Part shown: piece after piece, positions 21,375 through 24,302 of the stretch | How the letters are laid out: the number at the start of each line of letters is the position of its first letter | Numbering within the stretch: position 1 is the first letter of the stretch | NCBI GenBank assembly: GCA_020725465.1 | Contig: DYEY01000068.1 | Location: 1 to 64,000 of the forward strand | Length of the DNA: 64,000 nucleotides | Source: Dethiobacter sp. | GTDB lineage: Bacteria; Bacillota; Dethiobacteria; Dethiobacterales; Dethiobacteraceae | Direction: 5' to 3' | The notes under the pieces: generated by a model | Databases searched by the model: none | Told to the model about the DNA's origin: nothing | What the model saw: the letters and a program-made list of their open reading frames with translations, nothing else | Program-made: the position numbers and the translations under genes

Positions 21375-21398
21375 GCGGCCTGGCAGGCCGCCTTTATT
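21375..21398 (+). terminator. Terminator after epimerase-HD operon
   Basis: GCGGCCT and AGGCCGC pair around GGC, followed by CTTTATTT, 8 bases past the HD gene stop. It abuts the stop of the convergent hydrolase gene. Confidence 0.75.
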
Positions 21399-22324
21399 TA
21401 CAGTCCCTCACTATGCAAAAAATGCAAAATAGCTTCGTTTATCAGTTCCGGCCTTTCTTCGTGGGGCAGATGGCCGGCTTCCACAGTCATTAAGACCGCT
21501 CCCGGCAAAGCCAGGTACTTATTTGCGTCAGCCACGGGAAAAAGGGGATCGTATTTGCCCCAGATGACCAGTGCCGGCACCTTTATGTCAGGCAACCGTT
21601 CAAGCAAAGGCGGCGGCGGTGGCGTCTGTGCCAGGGCGCGGAGCACACAGGTAACACCAGGCAAGCGCAACGGCTTACGGTAACCGTCAACAACCGTCTC
21701 CGTAACCTGGTCCGGGTCATAAAACAGAGAGCGCAGAACAGCCCTTACCACGGGACGGGATGATACAATTTTCAGGAAGGCATGGGCGGCACCGGGGATC
21801 TTAAGCAGAAAACCATCCCTTTGTTCTGTTCTGTGGCCTGCGCTGTTCAACAGGATCAGGGCTGCCACCCTTTCCGGGTAGGCCAGGGCAAAAAGCAGTG
21901 CGTTACGCCCTCCCATAGAGTTCCCAACCAACACCGCCCTCTCAATACTCATATTATCCATGAAGCTTTTCAGCCTCTCTACCTCAGCCGGCGCACTGTA
22001 GTCACCGTCACGGGGTTTGTCTGAGAAGCCAAAGCCCAGCGCATCTGGTGCCAGTACCAGACGCTCGCCTGAAAGGGCAACCAGGTTATGCCGGAAACTG
22101 AAAGTGGAAGCGCCAAACCCATGCAGGAGAATCAAGGGCGTCCTCCCTTCACTTCCGGCCTGCTCGTAATGAACCGCCCCGCCGGGTAGGCTTGCAAACT
22201 TACCCGGCGCCGGCTCCGACCGCGTGCCGTTTACCGGCCAAAGCAGCCAGGCAACCAGGACAACCAGCGATATCGCTGCTGATCGCCGCGCCCAAATGCA
22301 GCCGCTTTTCATGGCCCAGTCCAT
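21398..22324 (-). CDS. Alpha/beta hydrolase, probably membrane-anchored
   Basis: A 308-residue alpha/beta hydrolase. A hydrophobic N-terminal helix (AAISLVVLVAWLLWPV) suggests a membrane anchor or signal. The oxyanion motif is LLHGFGAS, the nucleophile is Ser in GNSMGG, the acid is in WGKYDPLFP, and the last conserved His is in EAGHLPHEE, so the triad is complete. The substrate is unknown. It starts 4 bases after the stop of the Rossmann-MCP gene, so the two are probably cotranscribed. Confidence 0.85.
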   Translation of the reverse strand: MDWAMKSGCIWARRSAAISLVVLVAWLLWPVNGTRSEPAPGKFASLPGGAVHYEQAGSEGRTPLILLHGFGASTFSFRHNLVALSGERLVLAPDALGFGFSDKPRDGDYSAPAEVERLKSFMDNMSIERAVLVGNSMGGRNALLFALAYPERVAALILLNSAGHRTEQRDGFLLKIPGAAHAFLKIVSSRPVVRAVLRSLFYDPDQVTETVVDGYRKPLRLPGVTCVLRALAQTPPPPPLLERLPDIKVPALVIWGKYDPLFPVADANKYLALPGAVLMTVEAGHLPHEERPELINEAILHFLHSEGL

Positions 22325-22328
22325 CCCA

Positions 22329-23183
22329 TCAGGAGAGTTTCACCAGTTTCTCGGAAAGTGCTTTCAGCCTGGCTGACATATCAGCAAGGTGGTCAAGGGT
22401 GGCCAACACTTCCTCCGTAGCGGCGGCCTGGTTTTGGGCTGTCGACCCTGCGGCCCTGATCCCCTCATCAATGGCCTTCATATGTTGCATAATATTTTTT
22501 ACAAGAACAGAGATCTCTTTCGTTGACTTGCCGGTGCTTTCCGCCAGTTTTCTTATTTCGCCGGCCACCACTGTGAAGCCCGCTCCCGCCTGTCCTACCC
22601 TGGCTGCTTCAATAGCGGCGTTCAGGCCGATGATATTGGTTTTTTTGGCTATCTCTTCGATCAGTTTTAAGAAATCGGTTGCCCTGGCCGCCTCACCGGC
22701 GGCCTTTTCTGATGACTCTGCCAATTTTTCCCCGGCCTCCGCCAGTTTATTTGCCTCGCCGGCCAGTTGTTCCGCAGTGGCGCGGATGGTAACTATGGAC
22801 TCGTTTAAAATATCGGTATTACGGGCCAGCGTTTCCGCTTCCGCATGTATCCTGCCAAACAGTTCCTCGCGGCGTTCCACAATGGTAATCAGCAGCCTTG
22901 CCCCAACCGCATCTATAACGGAAAGGCCCGCTGTTACATTTTCCGTCAGCTGCTTTTTTACCGATTCCACTCCCGTCACTTCAATAACCAACTGCAGGCT
23001 ATGGTCATTCAGCAGCGGCACAAAGTCGGCAACAGCCGGAATATGTTTTTCCCGGGCCAGAAGCATCGCTGGCGCATTTACGTTAATGTCCGCCACCCAC
23101 TTCACCCGGACCGAGGGCATGGAGAGTAGCAGGTTGAGTACAGAAAGGCCCCCTTTTCCGCCGCCAATTATCCCCACGTTCAT
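22329..23183 (-). CDS. Soluble chemoreceptor-like protein with N-terminal Rossmann domain
   Basis: About 284 residues with an unusual domain order. Residues 1-110 form a Rossmann-type NAD(P)-binding domain: GIIGGGKGG fits GxGxxG, then an acidic strand end (WVADINV) and EVTG as in oxidoreductases. Residues about 115-284 are an MCP signalling domain with the conserved hairpin tip around [20 protein letters not shown] and long heptad repeats. There is no transmembrane segment, HAMP or PAS domain, so it should be cytosolic. The ATG at 23183 begins the Rossmann motif; a longer start at 23234 adds 17 residues without a ribosome site. No che genes are nearby. A cofactor- or redox-sensing role is an inference. 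Confidence 0.82.
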
Positions 23184-23333
23184 AATTTTACCAATCCTCT
23201 CACAACATAAGTCTCCTGGTTCGATGTTGGCCATAATACCTGTTTTTTCTTTGCCCAGCTTTTTTTTCCTGCTTTTATATAAAAAAATTTTTGTAACAAT
23301 AAATTTATAAAATGTCTAGGGGAGGACAAAGCT

Positions 23334-24302
23334 ATGCTGGTCCGTTTCGGCTTTGTCGCCATGTCAGTGCTGCTGGAAAACGCTTCCCCCTCCAGAGCAG
23401 TGACTTATAAGAATTACCGGCAGCTGGCCGAAAGTGACCCTGCAGCCGCTTTAGACAGGGTGAGACAGGCAGCCCGGGAAAACCTGGCCAACAGCCTGCG
23501 CCTGCTTCGGCACTGCCGTGCTTACAACGTGGCGGTTTACCGTTTTTCTTCCAAAATAGTCCCACTGGCCACCCATCCCGGACTGGCCCACTGGGACTAT
23601 ATCGGTGAACTGCGAGAACCACTGGCCCAACTGGGTGCGGTGGTCCGGGAGTACGGGATGAGGGTGACTTTTCACCCTGACCATTACACGCTCATTAATT
23701 CGCTTAAAGAAGAGGTTTTCATGGCGGCGGTAACAGATCTTGTGCACCATTGCCGCTTGTTTAACACCATGGGCTTGGACCGGGAGGCCAAACTTATAAC
23801 CCACGTGGGTGGTAGTTACAGGGATAAACAGGAATCGCTGGAGAGGTTCGTCACCAACTGGGCCCGCATCCCAAAAGGGATTGCCAAAAGGATGACCCTG
23901 GAAAATGACGATAAAACTTTCTCCGCCGGGGAAACAATTTATCTCTGTGAAAAGCTGCAGATGCCCATGGTATTGGATATTCACCATTTCCGGTGCAATC
24001 CCGGCACAGACAAACTGCAAGATATCTGCCCGCGCTTCCTCGCCACCTGGCAGGGGAGCGGGCTGCCGCCGAAAATACACGTTTCCAGTCCAAAGAGTAA
24101 CTCTGACCCGCGCGGTCACCACGACTTCGTGGATCCGGCGGACCTTTACCCCTTTTTGATGTTGGTCAGGGACCTTACGCCCAACCTGGATGTGATGGTG
24201 GAAGCAAAACAAAAAGACCGGGCCATGCTGAAGCTGGTAAAGGATCTTGGCGGTTATCCCCGTATCCGTACTGTAAATGACGCCGCACTGGAAATTATCT
24301 GA
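23334..24302 (+). CDS. uvsE: UV DNA damage endonuclease
   Basis: A 322-residue TIM-barrel endonuclease of the UvsE/UVDE family, which nicks 5' of UV photoproducts as an alternative to UvrABC. Family motifs include RFGFVAMS at the N-terminus, TFHPDHYTLINS, THVGGSYRDKQES, LENDDKTFS, LDIHHFRCNP and HVSSPKS, supplying the three-metal-ion ligands. The length is typical. The ATG is behind GGGGAGG. It is a monocistronic gene and useful in spores, which must repair UV damage on germination. Confidence 0.93.
   Translation: MLVRFGFVAMSVLLENASPSRAVTYKNYRQLAESDPAAALDRVRQAARENLANSLRLLRHCRAYNVAVYRFSSKIVPLATHPGLAHWDYIGELREPLAQLGAVVREYGMRVTFHPDHYTLINSLKEEVFMAAVTDLVHHCRLFNTMGLDREAKLITHVGGSYRDKQESLERFVTNWARIPKGIAKRMTLENDDKTFSAGETIYLCEKLQMPMVLDIHHFRCNPGTDKLQDICPRFLATWQGSGLPPKIHVSSPKSNSDPRGHHDFVDPADLYPFLMLVRDLTPNLDVMVEAKQKDRAMLKLVKDLGGYPRIRTVNDAALEII

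Follow-up and report, generated by a model that had tools for sequence, protein, structure and literature searches.

In this study, a gene of Dethiobacter sp. raised the question of what a soluble chemoreceptor with an N-terminal Rossmann domain might sense, and to which pathway it might report. The window, that is, the whole 64,000-nucleotide stretch that was analyzed (contig DYEY01000068.1, positions 1 to 64,000), was examined using profile searches, structure prediction and comparison with relatives. The coordinates, minus strand and length given for the gene in the sequence-only reading were correct. GAGAGG precedes its first Met, and an in-frame upstream ATG at 23234 was rejected as the start because every orthologue begins at that same Met. 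The gene and its neighbors are as follows.

22329..23183, minus strand: Rossmann-MCP soluble chemoreceptor gene, 284 residues plus stop (open reading frame, Pfam and orthologue starts)
21398..22324, minus strand: alpha/beta hydrolase, 4 bases downstream (Abhydrolase_1, 4.9e-29)
23334..24302, plus strand: UV endonuclease UvdE, a divergent and unrelated neighbor (UvdE, 6.9e-82)

The reported 4-base spacing was found as TGGG, and the Abhydrolase_1 match confirmed the hydrolase. Inspection of the neighborhoods of relatives revealed that the hydrolase does not lie beside the Rossmann-MCP gene in them and that the neighbors differ from lineage to lineage. The hydrolase and UvdE were therefore dropped as functional partners, and the hydrolase probably lies outside the chemoreceptor system, judging from these gene neighborhoods. 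In the Dethiobacter-type relatives L034, L035, L036 and L038, the divergent neighbor is a 4Fe-4S ferredoxin-like protein.

The protein was divided into the following parts, all encoded on the minus strand.

22911..23183, minus strand: Rossmann sensor domain, residues 1-91 (AlphaFold; the fold matches NAD dehydrogenases and Rex)
22845..22910, minus strand: connector helix, residues 92-113, unbroken between strand 5 and the MCP arm (full-length model)
22332..22844, minus strand: MCP signaling hairpin, residues 114-284 (PF00015 and the C-arm length in relatives)
22575..22628, minus strand: hairpin tip, the 18 residues 186-203, predicted CheA/CheW contact region (highly conserved in orthologues)
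22398..22427, minus strand: putative methylation site, residues 253-262 (fits the methylation consensus)

The claim that a soluble protein joins a Rossmann domain to a complete MCP hairpin held, given the predicted fold and a Pfam match to MCPsignal (PF00015) at residues 142-275 (4.8e-24; 85.6 bits, cut-off 34.6). The claimed lack of a membrane part, HAMP and PAS agreed with our searches: the 284-residue protein has no Pfam match to HAMP or PAS and no transmembrane segment, its maximum 19-residue mean hydropathy being 1.68, a peak that corresponds to strand 5 of the Rossmann core. In nearly all short Rossmann-MCP fusions (281-288 residues), the C-terminal arm after the tip measures approximately 87 residues, or about 12 heptads; class 24H is an estimate only, drawn from this arm length and heptad count. 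The stretch at residues 253-262 is kept in close orthologues and may serve as a methylation site. The tip in the window's own family (the window protein and orthologues L009-L020) reads GQAGAGF or similar and lacks the E and R normally present in GExGRGF, although relatives in other families retain both; the CheA/CheW contacts may have co-evolved with this altered tip. In the full-length AlphaFold model, a helix starts at residue 92, right after strand 5, and runs unbroken into the signaling arm. Because this model is a monomer (pTM 0.45) that draws the hairpin as a single straight helix, with neither turn nor dimer, its interdomain orientation is unreliable.

The sensor (residues 1-115) was modeled with AlphaFold from an alignment of 22 homologous domains. 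The results revealed a Rossmann fold (pLDDT 94.4, pTM 0.86) with predicted strands at residues 2-6, 26-31, 65-68 and 88-90 and helices between them. Foldseek placed acylating acetaldehyde dehydrogenases at the top together with Gfo/Idh/MocA enzymes, and NAD or NADH is present in several of these structures. VIA-align ranked NAD-bound GenD2 first (Z 11.8, rmsd 3.6, 112 aligned) and also matched KanD2-NADH (Z 11.1, rmsd 2.9, 102 aligned) and RSP, a redox repressor of the Rex family (Z 10.5, rmsd 4.8, 104 aligned). Matches with similar Z count as ties, and a common fold does not by itself establish function. CoA ligases and CoA-binding folds were absent among the fold matches listed by either program. 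Sequence-profile searches led to acylating acetaldehyde dehydrogenases, the best match by E-value (7e-8), and to inositol dehydrogenases, GAPDH and Rex; a phmmer search of the PDB with a single relative's domain gave no match at 1e-3. In Pfam, the window domain was below threshold for NAD_binding_3 (residues 12-90; 21.0 vs 24 bits), and homologues exceeded the cut-off for GFO_IDH_MocA (L044, L045 and L055) or NAD_binding_3 (L023 and L055). A Rossmann domain of the SAM-methyltransferase type, which also has GxGxG and an acidic residue, was set aside because the profile matches go to NAD enzymes.

We then considered the residues that would form the pocket.

23148..23165, minus strand: GxGxxG dinucleotide loop, residues 7-12 (G7-G8-G9-K10-G11-G12), conserved in MCP fusions
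23088..23090, minus strand: Asp32 after strand 2, a position favoring NAD(H) over NADP(H) (conservation)
22971..22982, minus strand: E-x-T-G motif after strand 4, residues 68-71 (conservation)

Many positions outside this signature vary among the MCP fusions. Within it, 52 of 54 fusions carry G7 and G9 (the remaining two have gaps) and 53 carry G12; E68 is kept in 52/54, and T70 and G71 each in 53/54. Asp32 is found in all 54 MCP fusions, in 14/14 members of a mixed group and in 21/24 sigma-54 fusions. Classical Rossmann enzymes bind the adenosine ribose through an Asp that closes strand 2 and gives preference to NAD(H) over NADP(H); PDB 4l8v, an A12K/D35S inositol dehydrogenase with NADP, illustrates this role. 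The sequence-only reading had proposed a dinucleotide-compatible domain, and as far as this check was run, the confident Rossmann model, the best matches to NAD enzymes and Rex and the nearly invariant signature supported it.

Features of an enzyme are missing. In the full-length model, the MCP helix directly follows strand 5, leaving no dehydrogenase substrate domain, and 52/54 MCP fusions have Ala, Ser or Gly immediately after the acidic position 91. Judging from the fold, position 92 would be the equivalent of the catalytic Lys in the EKP motif of Gfo/Idh/MocA enzymes. The missing substrate domain and the Ala or Ser at the expected lysine position suggest that the domain is a sensor and not a Gfo/Idh/MocA enzyme. 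A pocket kept while substrate domain and lysine are gone is the sequence pattern that one expects if a cofactor domain had turned sensor.

The sequence-only reading had suspected related fusions in other Firmicutes, which was right and understated. Orthologues with 50-62% identity and the same architecture recur across genera, so the architecture is not a chance product. In the class of the window genome, 19/98 genomes carry the fusion, with a length of 281-288 residues, and approximately 69 of the 398 genomes sampled from the phylum carry it, all with CheW; the latter figure counts Rossmann matches with a reading frame as long as expected for an MCP fusion, and for about 44 distinct short fusions the sequence itself was read. 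CheW was present in 19/19 fusion genomes of the class versus 36/79 others (Fisher p 3.6e-6) and in 69/69 fusion genomes of the phylum sample versus 268/329 others (p 4.4e-6), p-values that overstate independence because the genomes are related. Unlike the Rossmann-MCP fusions, Rossmann-sigma-54 fusions also occur in genomes without CheW. The Rossmann proteins L052, L128 and L129, one of them from a Phycisphaerae genome, have a shortened or degenerate MCP hairpin.

As had been stated, no che genes occur among the neighboring reading frames, and the only CheW domains of the window genome are on contig C43, which carries FliM, CheW, CheA (with Hpt, P2, dimer, ATPase and CheW domains), CheY-like, CheC, CheD and CheR; FliG is encoded elsewhere in the genome. 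In L039, L043 and L082, the gene has flagellar late genes on one side and cheY, cheA, cheW, cheR, cheB or cheD on the other (CheA, CheB and FlgK by family search, the other genes by reading). The missing nearby che genes are no obstacle, since che genes exist elsewhere in the genome and orthologues lie inside che/fla clusters. The window genome encodes three further small soluble MCPs (L003, L004 and L007), one with a sugar-diacid recognition domain and two with an N-terminal domain unnamed in Pfam, which looks duplicated in 490-residue Rossmann-X-X-MCP proteins (L110, L117-L119).

Other contexts of the gene were also recorded. It is directly followed by hydG in L045 (669 bits, cut-off 312), a hydG-like gene is next to it in L046, L138 and L140, and hydrogenase-like genes are near it in L144, all but the first by reading; these contexts weakly support NAD(H). 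The order parA-parB-[Rossmann-MCP]-hydG-cysteine desulfurase is kept in the Thermoanaerobacter-like lineages L045, L046, L138 and L140, with hydG tested in L045. By eye, the gene is flanked in L142, L145, L147, L148 and L154 by spmA/spmB-type spore maturation genes and, on its other side, by an rluB-type pseudouridine synthase gene.

The module is not confined to chemoreceptors. The same genomes encode PAS-AAA+-HTH sigma-54 activators that begin with a domain of this family, approximately 30% identical. In two Dethiobacter-type genomes, the activator gene is followed in its operon by genes for succinyl-CoA ligase, methylmalonyl-CoA mutase, epimerase and carboxyltransferase, assigned by family tests in the window genome and by reading in the second. 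In Mesobacillus, the order spo0A, glpQ-like, Rossmann sigma-54 activator, ptb, bcd-like and buk is that of the bkd locus, and this synteny identifies the activator as the BkdR orthologue; a Rossmann-headed reading frame of BkdR size was found in 51/61 genomes of one Bacillaceae-like family. For BkdR of B. thuringiensis, a published domain analysis reports no domains other than two PAS/PAC (PMC4428206). Rossmann-headed PAS-histidine kinases (L053 and L054), a GAF/PAS-HD-GYP protein (L135) and Rossmann-PAS-HTH_8 proteins resembling sigma-54 activators without AAA+ (L125, L130 and L133) were also identified. A tree of 89 domains, in which the short domain leaves many forks unresolved, required about five changes of output type versus about 30 with shuffled labels. 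The module has therefore rarely switched partners and has otherwise been inherited.

On the basis of these findings, we propose that the protein is a cytoplasmic chemoreceptor that senses a dinucleotide inside the cell, most likely NAD(H), and passes the signal to CheA/CheW, a reading to which we assign a probability of roughly 0.57. The Rossmann domain would be a dehydrogenase cofactor domain minus its substrate domain and expected catalytic lysine. Binding of the cofactor, or a change in its redox state, would move the loop that follows strand 5 and adjoins the nicotinamide pocket; the unbroken helix that starts there would carry the movement into the coiled coil and on to the hairpin tip, thereby changing CheA activity. 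Adaptation could proceed through the putative methylation site and the CheR, CheC and CheD of the genome. The analysis establishes the domain order, the conservation, the lack of a membrane anchor and the existence of a che core, together with a predicted fold; from these we infer NAD(H) as the ligand, the path from pocket through helix to tip, its direction and the control of flagella.

The same signaling route could instead begin with CoA, a short-chain or branched acyl-CoA or a related carbon metabolite. The cofactor domain of acylating acetaldehyde dehydrogenases binds CoA as well as NAD, and these enzymes supply the nearest sequence profiles; CoA_binding is matched by L023 and some others, including 4/15 domains of a wider set; and the sigma-54 relatives precede methylmalonyl-CoA/succinyl-CoA genes or a bkd-type ptb-bcd-buk cluster. 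The proximity of the acylating profile and the placement of the sigma-54 relatives at acyl-CoA pathways keep this ligand in consideration, although we regard it as unlikely: Asp32, a feature of NAD-ribose binding, is invariant in the MCP fusions, 14/15 domains of the wider set match GFO_IDH_MocA (E <= 0.01), and a chemoreceptor sensor and its sigma-54 paralogue need not have one ligand. The near invariance of the pocket signature amid many variable positions, as ligand binding would preserve it, also bears on the idea that the domain has lost its ligand and become a dimerization or partner-docking module, signaling through a partner such as a dehydrogenase or hydrogenase. Some sigma-54 relatives have indeed lost GxGxxG or Asp32, and taxis receptors that sense protein activity are known (PMC6978683), but the conservation in the MCP fusions makes a docking role rather improbable.

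A further alternative concerns the output, which might be a non-flagellar chemosensory pathway. One fusion genome of the class (G085) has CheW without a FliG match, and the gene adjoins spore-maturation-like genes in several lineages. We nevertheless give little credence to this output, because FliG is present in the other 18 of the 19 fusion genomes of the class, orthologues lie within flagellar clusters, and the single CheA-like gene of the window genome is in the same cluster as FliM.

The MCP part of the protein is ordinary, and the Rossmann sensor is not among the usual chemoreceptor inputs. The architecture is visible in databases, since Pfam detects an NAD-binding family on some members. 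No account of an MCP with an NAD-binding Rossmann sensor, or of NAD-binding sigma-54 regulators in clostridia, was found in the literature searched, which covers few subscription journals; nor was a BkdR with a Rossmann domain reported within that scope. The domain may represent an undescribed and widespread NAD(H)-sensing input module of about 110 residues, used like PAS or GAF on chemoreceptors, sigma-54 activators including BkdR, histidine kinases and HD-GYP proteins, a generalization that we put forward tentatively. Known receptors for energy taxis sense redox state by way of flavin, haem or respiratory partners. If the NAD(H) reading is true, anaerobic Firmicutes would have direct NADH/NAD+ energy taxis without an electron-transport chain or flavin, and cells that live by fermentation or acetogenesis could use NADH/NAD+ as a direct steering cue, through a receptor made from the cofactor domain of a dehydrogenase. 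The module on BkdR implies that this long-studied activator of branched-chain amino-acid genes probably has an extra sensor beyond its PAS domains. Because at least four kinds of output share this input, it can be defined as one family, and identifying its ligand once would serve all of them.

Compared with known systems, the protein shares an MCP hairpin, the lack of a membrane span and intracellular sensing with the soluble receptors HemAT, TlpD and YfmS. Receptors of that type sense through globin, CZB or other domains, whereas here a Rossmann cofactor domain is joined without a linker. Aer, a membrane-anchored receptor with PAS-FAD and HAMP that tracks electron transport (PMC9668731), has the same proposed role of conveying intracellular redox or energy state to CheA, but its PAS-FAD, HAMP and membrane anchor are all absent from the window protein according to Pfam and hydropathy. 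The NAD domains of Gfo/Idh/MocA, homoserine and acylating acetaldehyde dehydrogenases have the fold in common with it, as well as GxGxxG, an acidic residue following strand 2 and T-G following strand 4; in contrast to the Gfo/Idh/MocA-type enzymes, the window protein has neither a substrate domain nor an EKP-type lysine and is fused to a signaling output. The BkdR-type sigma-54 activators bear the same N-terminal module, as seen in the Mesobacillus orthologue assigned by synteny, but direct it to transcription activation through PAS-AAA+-HTH instead of an MCP hairpin. Rex, the NADH/NAD+-sensing repressor, likewise uses a Rossmann domain as a redox sensor; however, Rex acts on DNA through a winged helix, whereas the window protein has no N-terminal winged helix, begins its Rossmann domain at residue 1 and ends in a chemoreceptor hairpin.
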